64,000 bases of DNA from Streptomyces sp. DT2A-34 (GTDB taxonomy: Bacteria; Actinomycetota; Actinomycetes; Streptomycetales; Streptomycetaceae): positions 4,630,001-4,694,000 of the forward strand of contig NZ_JASTWJ010000001.1 of the NCBI RefSeq assembly GCF_030499515.1. The letters are read 5' to 3'. The stretch's first letter is position 1; each line of letters opens with the position of its first letter. The notes beneath the pieces are model-generated. The model was not told where the DNA came from. It saw nothing but the letters and a program-made list of their open reading frames with translations, and searched no databases. The position numbers and the translations under genes were made by a program. Positions 45,855-51,367 of this stretch are shown here, in pieces.

Positions 45855-45895
45855 GCAGCGGCGTCACCGTGTTCAGGTCACGGTGACGCCGCTGC
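45855..45895. terminator. Bidirectional terminator
   Basis: A perfect 17-bp stem (45855-45871 with 45879-45895), loop TTCAGGT, between the convergent F420-type gene and the Rieske-like gene. Confidence 0.8.
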
Positions 45896-45938: not shown

Positions 45939-46274
45939 TCAGGCACTGCGGGGGGTGGCTGAGATGGTCGTATGGGCCGGGGCTTCCGGCTCCACCAGTC
46001 GGTGGTCGCGCTGATCAAGGTTGACGAAGATCATTCCGTACCGGATGGCACACCGCACGGGCTGCGGCGCCCCCCGAGGCCGCCGCAGACACCGGTAAGC
46101 CCGTACGTCCTCGTCCTCGTCCCGGGTGACGACGACCGGCTCACCGAAGACGGTCACCATCAACGAGTCACCGGGGTGGGGGATCGCGGTGACCAAGTCG
46201 ATGAAGTGCCAGCCGGAGCGGTAGGCGGTGGCCATTTCTCTGCGGAAGGAGCGGTCGTCGGGTGGGGTGGTCAC
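45939..46274 (-). CDS. Rieske-like protein lacking iron ligands
   Basis: 111 residues from GTG at 46274, with GGGAG five bases upstream. The sequence follows the N-terminal domain of Rieske-type ring-hydroxylating oxygenases: ATAYRSGWHFIDLVTAIPHP, GDSLMVTVFGEPVVVTRDED, VRAYRCLRRPRGAP and RYGMIFVNLDQRD. Where Rieske proteins have C-x-H ... C-x2-H, this one has C-L-R-R-P-R-G and no second pair, and the segment between is deleted, so no [2Fe-2S] cluster can form. It starts one base after the stop of the small secreted peptide gene, so the two form an operon divergent from the LuxR array. A redox-dead binding or sensory role is possible. Confidence 0.55.
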   Translation of the reverse strand: MTTPPDDRSFRREMATAYRSGWHFIDLVTAIPHPGDSLMVTVFGEPVVVTRDEDEDVRAYRCLRRPRGAPQPVRCAIRYGMIFVNLDQRDHRLVEPEAPAHTTISATPRSA

Positions 46275-46275
46275 G

Positions 46276-46509
46276 TCAGCTCCCAGCCCCTTCTGCCTTC
46301 GACTCGGTGGACTCGGCCACAGTCGGCCACACGCTGTCCGCCACGAGGACATGGGTCTTGGCACTCGCCGGCCAGACACTGTCCTGCGCCCGGCCATCAC
46401 CCTCCGCACCAGTGAGGCCACTCAGAGTCCCGACGGCCACGACGGTGGAGAAGATGGCGACAAGCGCCGAGCGAAGCATTCTGTTCCGCATAGTCGGCTT
46501 CGTCCTCAC
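46276..46509 (-). CDS. Small secreted peptide with duplicated DSVWP motif
   Basis: 77 residues from GTG at 46509, GAGGAG about seven bases upstream. A basic start (MRTKPTMRNRML) and hydrophobic core (SALVAIFSTVVAVGTLSGLT) form a Sec signal peptide, with likely cleavage near residue 35-40. The short mature part contains DSVWP twice (residues 43-47 and 58-62, a 15-residue period) in an otherwise acidic, Ala/Ser/Thr-rich sequence without Cys. Small size, secretion, repeated aromatic motif and divergence from four paralogous regulators suggest an exported signalling peptide processed to DSVWP-containing fragments. That is inference; no family is recognised. Confidence 0.6.
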   Translation of the reverse strand: MRTKPTMRNRMLRSALVAIFSTVVAVGTLSGLTGAEGDGRAQDSVWPASAKTHVLVADSVWPTVAESTESKAEGAGS

Positions 46510-46595
46510 TTGAAGGTCTCCTCTTCCCCCGTCGAGTAAGACGATGGCTCATTCAGGCACGTCATGGCCACACAATCGATGCATCATGTTCCTGC

Positions 46596-47612
46596 ATGTT
46601 CAGGACCCTGGGGGGTGGAGATTTGGCAACGAATCAGACTAAAGCGACACATCCCCATGCGCTGACCGAGTTGTGTGAGGAAGGTGGCCGACTTTACGCA
46701 AACGCCATCCGCGCGGGACGCATCTCCCGGGCGGATGCGGAACCGGCCCCTTGCCTGGAGGAACTCGCCCTCCTTCACTCCGATCCCGACGACCCGAACT
46801 GGCTGCGCCCGGTGCCGCCGGCGGTCGCCCTCGCCCAGCGACTCAGCCCGATAGAGCACGAGATCACCGAGCGCAGGCGGCTGTCGATCGAACTGTCCGA
46901 CGTTTTCGCGCCGTTCATGGCACTCAGTACTCACGCGACGACCAACGACTCGATCACGGTGCTGGAAGGAAGCGAGCGGATCAACGCGGCGCTCAACCTG
47001 GCCACGGCCCAATGCCAAACCGAGATGCTCACGGTCCAGCCGAGCGGCTACCGGCCCGAGCGCAGCCTGATCCAAGGGCTGGAGCGCGACAGGCCCCTGA
47101 TCGAACGCGGGGTACGGATAAGGACTCTCTATCCGCACACTGCCCGGTACAGCCCCGAGCGACTGGCCTACGTGGATCAGCTCTCCGATGGCAAGGCCGA
47201 GCACCGGACCATCGATGGAGTGGTCGAGAGACTCATCATCTGCGACGAGACCGTGGCCTTCATTCCCATCCGAGACGACCAGAAGGTCGCCCTGGAACTC
47301 CGCCACCGGGGACTCATCCGCTACCTGATCAAGGTCTTCGAGTTCATGTGGGACCGAGCAGTTCCGCTGAGCGCGGGCGCCCCGTACGAGACCGCCCCCG
47401 ACGGCATCACGGATATCCAGCACTCCATCGCCAAGCTCCTCGTCGAGGGCCACGTCGACGAGGCCATCGCGCGCCGCCTGGGCATGAACGTCCGTACTTG
47501 CCGCGCCCACATAGCCAAGCTGGCCCAGGCGCTGGGCAGCGGCAGCCGTGCCCAGCTCGGCTATCTCATAGCCCAATCCGGAATCCTCAGGCAGGAAGGA
47601 GCAGCCCCATGA
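46596..47612 (+). CDS. LuxR-type HTH regulator with TrmB-like sensor region (paralogue 1)
   Basis: 338 residues. The C-terminal 60 residues are a LuxR-type helix-turn-helix: GITDIQHSIAKLLVEGHVDE, AIARRLGMNVRTCRAHIAKL. The central part (about 105-270) has the pattern MLTVQPSGYRPERSLIQGLE, RGVRIRTLYPHTARYSPERL and DETVAFIPIRDDQKVALELR. It resembles the ligand-binding/PLD-like half of TrmB-type regulators. The N-terminus is helical. It is first of three genes overlapping by four bases. The start may be ATG at 46596 or a TTG at 46623 just after GGTGGAG. It is divergent from the secreted DSVWP peptide. Confidence 0.8.
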   Translation: MFRTLGGGDLATNQTKATHPHALTELCEEGGRLYANAIRAGRISRADAEPAPCLEELALLHSDPDDPNWLRPVPPAVALAQRLSPIEHEITERRRLSIELSDVFAPFMALSTHATTNDSITVLEGSERINAALNLATAQCQTEMLTVQPSGYRPERSLIQGLERDRPLIERGVRIRTLYPHTARYSPERLAYVDQLSDGKAEHRTIDGVVERLIICDETVAFIPIRDDQKVALELRHRGLIRYLIKVFEFMWDRAVPLSAGAPYETAPDGITDIQHSIAKLLVEGHVDEAIARRLGMNVRTCRAHIAKLAQALGSGSRAQLGYLIAQSGILRQEGAAP

Positions 47613-48607
47613 GCGCACCGCCGCACCATGAGCACGGCCCCGAAGACCTATGTGCGACGGGAACGGCGCTGTACGAGCGCGCCCTGCGCGAGGGGCACGT
47701 GCGCTCTGCCGACTCCGCAGCGGCGCCTTGTCTGGTCGATTTCGGCCTCCTGCATCCCGCCGTCGCGGACCTGAGCCGGTTGGAGCCCGTCGCCGCGGCG
47801 GTCGCCCTGCACCGCCTGCTGAAAGCGTCCGAGCAGCGGATCGCCGATGAGAGGCAGCGGGAGACGAAGCTGACCGAGACGTTCGAACCGCTCATGCGGA
47901 TCGACGGCCAGAGCACGGGAGCCGAGAGCACTACCACGGTCACCGTTCTCAGTGGTCTCGACCGCATCAGCCAGGCCATCGACCAGGCCATGGCGGACAG
48001 TTCGGGCGAGCTCCTCGCCATCCAGCCACACATCACTCACACCACGTATACGGCTCCCGAGGTCCACGTCGAGGCCCTAGCCCGCGACCAGGCCCTGCTC
48101 GACCGCGGCGGCTCCATTCGCACCCTCTACCAGCACACTCTCCGCCACGCACCCTCCGTCATCGCCCGCTACGAGCAACTCCGCGGCGAAGCCGAGGCTC
48201 GCACCCTCGACGAGGTTCCCGAACGCCTCCTCGTCATCGACCGCACCGTCGCCTTCCTCCCCGCCAGCAAGGACCGGAAGCTGGCCCTGGAAATCCGCCA
48301 GCCAGCCATCGTCACGTTCCTCGCCACCACCTTCGAGCGCCTCTGGCGCCTGGCCACCCCCATGCGTCCAGAAGCCGTCCGGCAGCAATCCCTCAACGGC
48401 ATCACCCACCGCCAACGCGCCATCGCCGGCCTCCTCATCGAAGGCCACACCGACGCCGTCATCGCCGACCGCCTCGGCTTGAACGTCCGCACCGCCCGCG
48501 TCCACATCGCCAAACTCGCCGCCACCCTCGGCAGCGAAAGCCGCGCCCAACTCGGCTACCTCATCGCAGAATCAGGAATCCTCAGACAGGACGGAGTGAC
48601 TACGTGA
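47609..48607 (+). CDS. LuxR-type HTH regulator (paralogue 2)
   Basis: 332 residues from ATG at 47609, overlapping the stop of paralogue 1. HTH: GITHRQRAIAGLLIEGHTDA, VIADRLGLNVRTARVHIAKL. Sensor region: LLAIQPHITHTTYTAPEVHV, RGGSIRTLYQHTLRHAPSVI and DRTVAFLPASKDRKLALEIR. The central motif R-T-L-D-E-V-P-E-R-L-L-V-I-D is shared with paralogues 3 and 4. Compared with paralogue 1 the QPH segment is altered, which could change ligand specificity. The in-frame stretch before 47609 is antisense-like shadow of paralogue 1. Confidence 0.82.
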   Translation: MSAPPHHEHGPEDLCATGTALYERALREGHVRSADSAAAPCLVDFGLLHPAVADLSRLEPVAAAVALHRLLKASEQRIADERQRETKLTETFEPLMRIDGQSTGAESTTTVTVLSGLDRISQAIDQAMADSSGELLAIQPHITHTTYTAPEVHVEALARDQALLDRGGSIRTLYQHTLRHAPSVIARYEQLRGEAEARTLDEVPERLLVIDRTVAFLPASKDRKLALEIRQPAIVTFLATTFERLWRLATPMRPEAVRQQSLNGITHRQRAIAGLLIEGHTDAVIADRLGLNVRTARVHIAKLAATLGSESRAQLGYLIAESGILRQDGVTT

Positions 48608-49584
48608 CCCCGCCATCGCACCCGGGCCACGACGCGGAAGACCTATGCCCGGCGGGCACCAAGCTGTACGAGCAGGCGCTGCGCGAAGGGCGCGTGGATG
48701 CGCGCAACGCCGACGACGCATCGTGTCTCGTCAGGCTCGGGCTACTCCAGCCTGACCTCAGCGACCTGCGCTGGCTGGAACCGGTCGCCCCGGCCTACGC
48801 TCTCCACCGTTTGCTCCGCACTGCCGAGGAACGCATCGCAGACGAGCGCCGACGTGAGGAACGGCTGGCGGCGGTGTTCGAGCCGCTGAGACGCATACAC
48901 CGCCAGCCGACGGCTTCGGCGAGTCATCCATCGATCAGCGTCCACAGTGGTCTCGACCGAATCAACCGTGCCATCAGCGAGTCGATGGCGGACGCCACTA
49001 CGGAAGTCCTCGCTATCCAGCCTCATAAACCCAAGGCGGTCATCGCCCTCCGAGACGCCTCCGTGGTGCGCGACCAGGCTCTACTCGACCGTGGCGGCTG
49101 CATTCGCACCCTCTACCAGCACACCTTCCGTCATTTGCCCGAGCTGATGGCCCGCTATGAACTCCTCGAAGGCGACGTAGAAGCCCGCACTCTCGACGAG
49201 GTCACCGAACGCCTCCTCATAATCGACCGCACCGTCGCGTTCATCCCCGCGAACAGGGACCGCACCCTCGCCGTCGAGATCCGCCACCCGGCCATCGTCG
49301 ACTACTTCGTCACTACCTTCGACCGCCTCTGGCACCTGGCCACTCCCCTGTACCCGGAGGCTGTCCAGCAACCTTCTTTGAACGGCATCACCCCCCGCCA
49401 ACGTGCCATCGCCACGCTGCTCATCGAAGGCCACACCGACGCCGTAATCGCCGACCGCCTCGGCTTGAACGTCCGCACCGCCCGCGCCCATATCGCCAAA
49501 CTCGCCGCAACTCTCGGAAGCGAAAGCCGAGCCCAACTCGGCTACCTCATCGGGCAGTCCGCGATTCTTGATCAGGCAGGCTGA
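48604..49584 (+). CDS. LuxR-type HTH regulator (paralogue 3)
   Basis: 326 residues from GTG at 48604, overlapping paralogue 2 by four bases. Nearly the same C-terminal HTH as paralogue 2 (RAIATLLIEGHTDAVIADRL, GLNVRTARAHIAKLAATLGS) and the same core (RGGCIRTLYQHTFRHLPELM, DRTVAFIPANRDRTLAVEIR). The close match to paralogue 2 indicates recent tandem duplication, whereas the sensor segment after LAIQPH (KPKAVIALRDASVVRDQ) differs. Its 3' end overlaps the convergent paralogue 4 by 38 bases. Confidence 0.82.
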   Translation: MTPPSHPGHDAEDLCPAGTKLYEQALREGRVDARNADDASCLVRLGLLQPDLSDLRWLEPVAPAYALHRLLRTAEERIADERRREERLAAVFEPLRRIHRQPTASASHPSISVHSGLDRINRAISESMADATTEVLAIQPHKPKAVIALRDASVVRDQALLDRGGCIRTLYQHTFRHLPELMARYELLEGDVEARTLDEVTERLLIIDRTVAFIPANRDRTLAVEIRHPAIVDYFVTTFDRLWHLATPLYPEAVQQPSLNGITPRQRAIATLLIEGHTDAVIADRLGLNVRTARAHIAKLAATLGSESRAQLGYLIGQSAILDQAG

Positions 49585-50596
49585 GCGGCGGTAACGATGA
49601 CTCGGCGTTTCTCGATCGGGGAGGGCCGTCCAGGCCGACCTGGGCGATACGGACGCCCAGTTGCGTACGGCTGGCCGCGCCCAGCGTCTCCGAGAGGCGC
49701 GCGATGTGTGCCCGGCACGTGCGGACGCTTATGCCGAGCCGTTCCGCGATCACCGCATCCTGGTGGCCTTCCGCCAGCAGCGCGGCGATGGACTGTTCAC
49801 GGTGAGAGATGCCCTTGATGCCAGTGTCGGGCAGAGGAGCCGTGAGGGGGATCGCCAGGCGCCAGAAGCGTTCGAAGACCGTTACCAAGTACTGGACCAG
49901 GGCCGGGTGGCGGAGTTCCAGCGCCATCGTGCGGTCCGTGTTCGCGGGGATGAAGGCGACCGTACGGTCGAAGACGATCAGCCGGTCGATTACCTCGTCC
50001 AGCGTGCGCGCCTCCACCGACTCACCCATCAACTCCAGGTAGTTGAGCAATCCATGACCGTGTCTGGCCACGTGTGTGTACAGGTCGCGCATCCGCACGC
50101 CTCGGCCCCGTAGCGCCAGCGACCGGTGCAGGCCCTCTGTCAGCTCGTGCTCGGGACGGATGCCGCCGGGCTGGACGGTCAGCACCTCCGTCGTGCACGC
50201 CTGAGTCGCCTCGTCCAGCGCTGCCTGGATGCGGTGGTCACCGTCCAGGACTCGAATCGCCGAGCCCTCCGCGCCGGGCGCCTTGGGCTGCAGCCCGAGC
50301 CGGGTGTACCACTCGAACGCCGCCACCGCCGAGCCCATCCGCCGCTGGCTCGCGCTGACCTCGTCGTACACCCCGCGCAGCAGCCGGGTCATGACCTCCT
50401 GCGGGGACGTCGGCACCAGCCAGTCCATGTCGTCGGGATCCGGATGGAGCAGCGCAAGTTCCAACAGGCAGGGCACCGCATCGGCATCCCGGCGCGGCAC
50501 TCTGCCCCGCCGTACGGCCCGGGAGTACACGCGATCCCCGCCCTCGCACAGTCGGTCGGCACCGTGTGGATGCTCGCCCCCTCCGCGCTCGGTCAT
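49547..50596 (-). CDS. LuxR-type HTH regulator (paralogue 4, opposite strand)
   Basis: 349 residues from ATG at 50596, GGGGGTGG just upstream. HTH: GISHREQSIAALLAEGHQDA, VIAERLGISVRTCRAHIARL. Sensor region: VLTVQPGGIRPEHELTEGLH, RGVRMRDLYTHVARHGHGLL and DRTVAFIPANTDRTMALELR. By its QPGG and MRDLYTHVARHG motifs it is nearer to paralogue 1 than to 2 and 3. The C-terminus continues about 25 residues beyond the others (SRNAESSLPPLSLPDQESRT). It is convergent with the three-gene array and has its own promoter in the 354-bp gap to 50951. Confidence 0.82.
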   Translation of the reverse strand: MTERGGGEHPHGADRLCEGGDRVYSRAVRRGRVPRRDADAVPCLLELALLHPDPDDMDWLVPTSPQEVMTRLLRGVYDEVSASQRRMGSAVAAFEWYTRLGLQPKAPGAEGSAIRVLDGDHRIQAALDEATQACTTEVLTVQPGGIRPEHELTEGLHRSLALRGRGVRMRDLYTHVARHGHGLLNYLELMGESVEARTLDEVIDRLIVFDRTVAFIPANTDRTMALELRHPALVQYLVTVFERFWRLAIPLTAPLPDTGIKGISHREQSIAALLAEGHQDAVIAERLGISVRTCRAHIARLSETLGAASRTQLGVRIAQVGLDGPPRSRNAESSLPPLSLPDQESRTAR

Positions 50597-50950: not shown

Positions 50951-51367
50951 ATGCGCACCAAGACCAGTGCTGCACTCATAGCCGTCGCCATCGCGGCTGG
51001 TTCCGTCATGTTCAGCGCGCCCACCGCCTCGGCGGCAGCCAGCTGTAGCTCCTCCGGCTACACCGCCACGGGCCTGCCCATCGAGCGGTGCACCAGCCTG
51101 GAGAACGGAATCCTCTACCACAAGAAGGACGGCAACTCCCCTACCGGCCTGTGGACGACCTACTCCAAGACCGGTGGATCCAGCGTCACTATCAAACTCG
51201 GCTACAGCATGTCCGGTTCCACCACCTACTCCTCGTCCTTCTCCATCAGCGACGGCGAGACCAAGCGGAGAACCTGGACCAAGTCCGGCAGTTACATGTG
51301 CTACAACAGCGTCGGCCTTCTGAGCTACAGCGGCGGCACCTACCAGACGCCGGCTGCGCACTGCTAA
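50951..51367 (+). CDS. Small secreted Ser/Thr-rich protein
   Basis: 138 residues. The signal peptide MRTKTSAALIAVAIAAGSVM ... APTASA is followed by a mature domain of about 108 residues with four Cys (SCSSSG, ERCTSL, YMCYNS, and C-terminal AHC) and an alternating polar/aromatic pattern (LWTTYSKTGGSSVTIKLGYS, GSTTYSSSFSISDGETKRRT). This looks like a small all-beta, disulphide-bonded extracellular protein. No family is recognised. AAAGGGGG six bases before ATG gives strong translation, and a terminator follows at once. Confidence 0.75.
   Translation: MRTKTSAALIAVAIAAGSVMFSAPTASAAASCSSSGYTATGLPIERCTSLENGILYHKKDGNSPTGLWTTYSKTGGSSVTIKLGYSMSGSTTYSSSFSISDGETKRRTWTKSGSYMCYNSVGLLSYSGGTYQTPAAHC

Follow-up and report, generated by a model that had tools for sequence, protein, structure and literature searches.

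A probable multi-copy peptide pheromone and its candidate LuxR-type receptor beside clpB in Streptomyces

Introduction

Why should a gene for a short peptide that carries one motif twice stand back to back with a row of LuxR-type regulator genes? The question is raised by a stretch of 64,000 nucleotides (the window) from the 10.3-Mb genome of Streptomyces sp. DT2A-34 (contig NZ_JASTWJ010000001.1, positions 4,630,001 to 4,694,000), in which the gene of a 77-residue peptide precursor (46276..46509, minus strand) lies divergent to luxA (46596..47612, plus strand), the first of four paralogous regulator genes. Streptomyces are the makers of many antibiotics, and most of the signals known from them are small lipids, gamma-butyrolactones for example. 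A sequence-only reading of the locus had proposed a cell-cell signalling system in which a secreted peptide faces four LuxR-type regulators. Here we followed the locus through the genus and its relatives beyond it, and conclude, with a probability of roughly 0.8, that it is a peptide signalling system in which a multi-copy peptide pheromone is sensed by LuxA.

Results

The peptide reads exactly as had been claimed, with DSVWP at residues 43-47 and 58-62 behind a conserved basic and hydrophobic leader. Core copy 1 (46369..46383, minus strand) is encoded by GAC AGT GTC TGG CCG and core copy 2 (46324..46338, minus strand) by GAC AGC GTG TGG CCG, the differences being synonymous. Directly downstream, with its start one base past the peptide stop, follows the gene of a degenerate Rieske-like protein of 111 amino acids (45939..46274, minus strand). 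This protein was used as the anchor for fetching loci, which makes the sampling independent of the peptide motif. It has matches in 327 of 392 sampled Streptomyces genomes; two of these (G072 and G361) were rejected as family members, being open reading frames (ORFs) of 400-414 amino acids that look like ordinary Rieske oxygenases, and the corrected count is nearer 325 of 392, including four genomes with a diverged form. Together with their upstream DNA, 220 loci were fetched, duplicates included, of which 191 are unique. In the search for small ORFs the stop codon had to fall between 60 bases before and 30 bases after the Rieske-like start and the beginning had to be leader-like, and such a peptide ORF was found immediately before the Rieske-like gene in 219 of the 220 loci. 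The gap between peptide stop and Rieske-like start runs from -7 to +21 nt (-4 in 107 of the 191 unique loci), and the leader has a hydropathy of at least 1.6 in all 191 unique precursors, on which basis it was judged to be of export type. By best hit luxA is divergent from the peptide gene in 190 of the 191 unique loci, and on closer reading the same holds for the remaining one (L110).

Between one and eleven [DEN]xxW cores stand in the C-terminal part of 190 of the 191 unique precursors, and 40 core types were found, among them DSVW, DSTW, DSSW, DTSW, DSHW, DSKW, DIGW, DITW, EISW, DPVW, EPSW and DVGW. Two expectations of the sequence-only reading, that the motif should be conserved in homologous loci and that orthologues of the regulator should be accompanied by a small secreted ORF (219 of 220 loci for LuxA), were thus borne out. 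A single core copy is present in 35 of the 191 precursors; among the 155 with several copies, all copies are identical in 144, compared with a mean of 4.57 and a maximum of 13 when the cores were shuffled between precursors (2000 shuffles). The copies differ in synonymous codons in 113 of these 144 precursors, with no such difference in the other 31, and identity of the copies despite differing codons points to selection on the peptide and not just to fresh duplication. Between loci the cores change readily: only 18% of 685 locus pairs in the bin of 96-99% Rieske identity have the last core in common. One short peptide is thus repeated, homogenised within the precursor and variable between species, and judged from the sequences this uniformity within and variability between is what a multi-copy signal precursor should display. 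The family data on the cores rule out a simple repeat or chance as the origin of DSVWP; a DNA word search for DSVWP (6+6 matches versus 5+4 for the reversed word) was uninformative alone.

The receptor side of the locus follows the peptide. Structure modelling of LuxA predicts a PLD/TrmB fold at residues 115-261 and a LuxR-type helix-turn-helix (HTH) at residues 268-331, and both a TrmB sensor domain and a LuxR/GerE HTH were recognised in the sequence. When the columns of this 338-residue protein were screened for those that change with the core, given overall identity, the top seven (144, 151, 153, 146, 156, 154 and 142) proved to be one stretch of LuxA. Residue 144 (codon at 47025..47027, Met in the window), which the model places within the sensor strand 143-147, tracks core position 2 by a simple rule: Met goes with Ser, Leu with Pro, and Val with Thr, Ile, Leu, Val or Arg. 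Every unique locus with a core obeys the rule (190 of 190, made up of 80 Ser-Met, 27 Pro-Leu and 83 other-Val); the count is taken from the divergent gene, and locus L143 stands outside it, as it has no core by the pattern used.

Common descent was then taken into account in analyses of 162 rows, from which L143 and 28 unique loci with an incomplete, unoriented or duplicate luxA are left out. In a LuxA tree from which columns 138-165 had been left out, all seven independent switches between Ser and non-Ser on supported branches match residue 144, and over all branches there are 12 such switch pairs. On a LuxD tree about 7.4 of 8 switches are concordant, and its two discordant rows are misreads by the regular expression. 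When disjoint pairs were matched for distance, residue 144 was found to differ in 33 of the 40 pairs whose cores differ at position 2 and nowhere else, versus 0 of 47 pairs with the same core (p 4.5e-15). Of 256 LuxA columns, no other passes Bonferroni correction after this matching, and neither does any column of the Rieske-like protein. This covariation strongly suggests that the DxxW cores are the ligands of LuxA. It also makes it very improbable that the peptide gene and the 5' part of luxA have merely been exchanged together, with residue 144 riding on the swapped segment: the genes are adjacent and divergent and cores change often, but the neighbouring columns should then follow as well, whereas in the matched pairs only 144 does, and the link between Ser and Met recurs in another family (f28, below).

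For core position 3 the signal is weaker. Variation at LuxA residues 151-156 (47046..47063, plus strand), a loop and the start of a helix, tends to follow this position: Lys or Arg at position 3 comes with Ser153 in 9 of 10 rows versus 0 of 152, and Asp151 is present in 14 of the 15 rows that have either His at position 3 or Asn at position 1, versus 0 of 147. Position 3 has changed at least 39 times on the LuxA tree. By these associations the residues around 151-156 probably read core position 3; a position-3 code was not accepted as proven, as no column is significant in the distance-matched tests.

Relatives of LuxA away from the clpB locus gave a second, weaker test. Among 246 genomes of the class, 108 contain relatives of LuxA at E 1e-30. 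Sixty regions around off-locus relatives (20 from Streptomyces, 40 from other genera) were compared, after masking of the receptor gene, with 40 control regions drawn at a distance of 30-60 kb from relatives of this kind, for the most part from the same genomes. A small ORF with a hydrophobic leader and a [DEN]xxW motif was found nearby in 19 of the 60 regions versus 2 of the 40 controls (p 8.7e-4), and with the stricter D[STPILVMAN]xW in 15 of 60 versus 0 of 40 (the reversed motif gave 3 and 3); the unmasked detector counted 28 of 60 versus 4 of 40, several of its hits being fragments of the receptor ORF itself. The idea that homologues of the regulators elsewhere have a peptide close by is therefore supported by the excess over controls, and is tempered by the 41 of 60 regions in which no peptide was detected.

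In the actinobacterial family f28 the core stands 0-2 residues past an AxA site resembling that of signal peptidase in all 11 peptides listed (for example SPAHA-DTSWG; read by eye), and the mature peptide therefore probably starts at or just before the Asp. Here Ser cores come with Met in 3 of 3 cases, and Thr cores come without Met in 8 of 8 (with Leu, Ala or Ile instead). When the off-locus pairs were pooled by eye, Met was found with 3 of 4 Ser cores versus 0 of 22 others (p 0.0015); the pool omits L267, L319, L322 and L334, in which the peptide is doubtful or lacks a [DEN] start, and none of which has Met. As a separate observation, four off-locus LuxR relatives (L323, L330, L332 and L347) lie beside small ORFs with hydrophobic leaders and other Trp motifs, namely TTAWE twice, DGAGWQ twice, STIWG at the end, and A-TSWG after an AxA site.

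The other regulators of the locus do not share the pattern of LuxA. The arrangement itself was confirmed, with LuxA, LuxB (47609..48607, plus strand) and LuxC (48604..49584, plus strand) opposite the peptide and LuxD (49547..50596, minus strand) converging on them; at E 1e-5 these four are the sole family members in the genome apart from one distant relative at 25% identity. LuxB and LuxC are paralogues of LuxA that form variable accessory cassettes between luxA and luxD, the number of such cassettes per full locus being 0, 1, 2 and 3 in 19, 38, 11 and 3 loci, respectively. Their pockets are heterogeneous, with motifs such as QPH, QPN, QPY and QPG (47609-49584 and loci L074-L153). LuxD is a strongly conserved paralogue present in 69 of 71 full-length loci, and every one of the 74 LuxD-type ORFs, including a distant one at 32% identity, has Val as the equivalent of residue 144; 49 of the 74 stand beside Ser cores. 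Val whatever the core rules out LuxD as an equal receptor and, with LuxD invariant and LuxB and LuxC varied, the code is that of LuxA itself. Of the proposal that the peptide faces four regulators, the covariation favours recognition by LuxA, and the notion of four equal receptors is not upheld. LuxB and LuxC may sense foreign dialects, and LuxD may be a core-independent partner.

In the full-length loci clpB is never more than 5 kb away (71 of 71), and this constant neighbour indicates one ancestral place. Outside the genus the system was not found at clpB: a search of 150 genomes from the family gave 33 matches, of which 30 fell within the genus, and the other three were matches of about 32 bits inside large ORFs. 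None of the 20 genomes examined, of the 65 without the Rieske-like gene, holds a LuxA relative above 41% identity. The diverged form (genomes G071, G074, G129 and G208; L253-L256 and L274-L277) is a whole locus with LuxA at 54% and the Rieske-like protein at 43-47% identity, and it carries a single C-terminal core, DPAWD or DPTWG, together with Leu144.

An inverted repeat, TCCTG-N6-CAGGA (46590..46605), lies in the divergent promoter as a candidate operator and overlaps the listed ATG of luxA. Across the 190 unique loci, TCCTG-N5/6-CAGGA is perfect in 158, a one-step variant is present in 22 and neither in 10; a control word was found in 1. A general repeat finder returned 0 pairs, the TCCTG and CAGGA arms being too short for its detection. 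In the promoters of L031, L033, L165, L169, L171 and L172, two direct CAGGAACATG-like copies replace the perfect inverted repeat.

For the regulatory outcome we turned to S. coelicolor. In S. violaceoruber, which we take to be its close relative, the gene order is clpB, Rieske-like, peptide (core NTVW), luxA (338 aa), luxB (329 aa) and luxD (363 aa) (locus L128). According to passages of the published papers, S. coelicolor clpB is SCO3661 (PMC2687793), and the LuxR family has SCO3665 (327 aa) and SCO3666 (394 aa) among its members (PMC3282765). From this order and the SCO numbering, SCO3664 is probably luxA. In passages of the study concerned, disruption of SCO3664 by insertion increased actinorhodin more than 50-fold, and the gene is among eight listed regulatory down-modulators; complementation was obtained in 12 of 16 regulator mutants tested, and these passages list an SCO3664 plasmid and leave its own outcome unstated (PMC6585502). 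A further 338-aa LuxR-family protein, SCO2686, is also listed there as an actinorhodin down-modulator (PMC6585502, PMC3282765, both in passages).

The Rieske-like protein resembles the N-terminal part of Rieske oxygenases and has the Rieske fold, with a Pfam Rieske score (16.2 bits) below the cut-off, and its best sequence stretches end at residue 69. In 29 aligned rows inspected by eye there was no CxH or CxxH motif of the kind that supplies the CxH...CxxH ligands of a [2Fe-2S] cluster, and this loss of the iron-sulphur ligands rules out a functional Rieske enzyme. Our guess is that it is a binding or escort protein. Downstream of its gene lies a long G+C-rich hairpin (45855..45895), a probable terminator; with a 101-nt stretch folded, its z was -4.98 and 0 of 200 shuffles were as stable. 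At the other end of the locus, the gene adjoining luxD (50951-51367, plus strand) encodes a small protein of 138 aa that contains Cys and begins in the manner of a secreted one. It was rejected as a part of the system, as it had no match at E 1e-5 in the 71 full loci, the far end of which may stop short of that place.

Discussion

The conservation of the cores and the covariation with LuxA support the sequence-only reading of a secreted-peptide signalling system, in which secretion and cell-cell action are inferred. In the mechanism that we propose, a Sec-type leader would export the precursor with its 1-11 copies of one [DEN]-x-x-W signal, proteases would release the copies, and the signal would re-enter the cell, presumably via a general oligopeptide permease, where it would bind the TrmB/PLD-fold sensor of LuxA as a cytoplasmic regulator. 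LuxA would then act on the divergent promoter of its own gene and probably also on the production of antibiotics. Residue 144 would read core position 2, and the core of each species would define its own dialect. It is likely that the cores act as exported and re-imported pheromones, secretion, processing and uptake being steps that we infer, and it is plausible that the system would gate secondary metabolism. On a wider proposal, in which a peptide language is shared across the actinobacterial class, with one residue reading position 2 across families, Streptomyces dialects gating antibiotics and LuxB and LuxC hearing the dialects of other strains, we lean neither way.

Several observations weigh against peptide signalling through LuxA as set out above. 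LuxB and LuxC, the invariant LuxD and the Rieske-like partner are left unexplained by it. Mixed cores occur in 11 of the 155 multi-copy precursors, and L143 (Streptomyces sp. Ag109_O5-1) combines a single aberrant core, ITEW, with Leu144 and an in-frame stop codon close to the precursor's end; its dialect may be decaying or shifting. If pairs are left unmatched for distance, the core is tracked by many LuxA columns and by two columns of the Rieske-like protein as well (column 50, corrected p 0.044; column 65, corrected p 0.0076), which is why the matching is needed; the matched pairs have no row in common, although some may lie on the same branches. At position 3 no single LuxA column is significant after distance matching, though its columns rank top; a nearest-neighbour window scan predicts this position only modestly and, with neighbours below 72% identity, the windows that perform best, whether for position 3 or for the two positions together, fall outside the hot stretch. 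Away from clpB, most of the receptors (the 41 of 60 noted above) come without a detected peptide, L258 pairs DSAW with Leu as the single miss in the pool, and around L311, which has Met144, no peptide was found. No transporter or protease gene was seen between 45.2 and 51.4 kb of the window, and the assignment of SCO3664 was made by gene order.

That no transporter gene was seen beside the locus also fits the alternative that survives best, in which LuxA would bind core fragments of its own precursor inside the cell or during export and thereby report secretion or proteolysis as a private gauge. The constant neighbour clpB is a heat-shock chaperone gene, and LuxA is modelled as a sensor joined to a DNA-binding domain, from which the ligand would be met in the cytoplasm. 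Such self-sensing leaves unexplained why cores change fast between close relatives with a matching change in the receptor, and why there are extra receptor-like cassettes with different pockets, and we regard it as unlikely. Less likely still is that the precursor yields a multi-core ribosomal peptide natural product matured with the Rieske-like protein, LuxA being the product-sensing regulator of the pathway; the tight gene pair, the strong conservation of the Rieske-like protein beside a variable peptide, and the multi-core precursors known among such products would all suit it.

Peptide signalling through LuxA can be compared with several known systems. In its working mode the locus comes closest to RRNPP-type peptide quorum sensing, while the receptor fold and the host phylum differ. 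The RRNPP(A) systems of Bacillota (Rap-Phr, PlcR-PapR, Rgg-SHP and AimR-AimP) likewise have a short secreted peptide gene beside that of a cytoplasmic receptor-regulator, as is the case here for a small gene with an export leader in 219 of 220 loci, and variable peptide-receptor pairs are found there too. Some RRNPP(A) propeptides carry 1-4 copies in tandem, according to passages of PMC11343458. Unlike them, the present system has up to 11 copies, mostly identical, and a Rieske-like partner, a [DEN]xxW core, an actinomycete host, and a TrmB/PLD-fold sensor with a LuxR-type HTH in place of tetratricopeptide repeats; no such repeats were among the Pfam matches of LuxA-D, LuxA residues 1-114 not having been searched separately. 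TrmB binds sugars. Unlike archaeal TrmB and TrmBL2, LuxA has an added C-terminal LuxR HTH and covaries with a peptide, which suggests, at the level of sequence, a ligand other than sugar. With the canonical LuxR-LuxI acyl-homoserine-lactone receptors it has the C-terminal LuxR-type HTH in common, but its sensor is PLD/TrmB-like and its conserved partner is a peptide gene; there was no Pfam match to an autoinducer-binding (acyl-homoserine-lactone) domain in any of LuxA-D, the sensor matching PLD/TrmB instead. Gamma-butyrolactone signalling of the ArpA type has in common a diffusible signal thought to gate antibiotics, whereas here the signal would be a gene-encoded peptide and the receptor is not of the TetR type. 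The precursor of the yeast alpha-factor also carries several near-identical copies of a signal in one secreted chain, but it is unrelated, and the receptor there lies in the membrane. In open PubMed Central (PMC) papers, subscription papers and preprints being outside this scope, no description of the precursor family, the receptor class or the code was found; among the matches listed for the core words there were only DVGW (the water and gas association) or papers off-topic by title.

If peptide signalling through LuxA is true, the dialects of Streptomyces would be predictable from genomes via a readable receptor code, and the TrmB/PLD fold would be established as a peptide-sensing module. 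Imported oligopeptide signals in Streptomyces development, such as the substrate of BldK, would become directly testable. Additionally, there would be a handle on silent antibiotic clusters, either by adding the matching short peptide or by removing LuxA.

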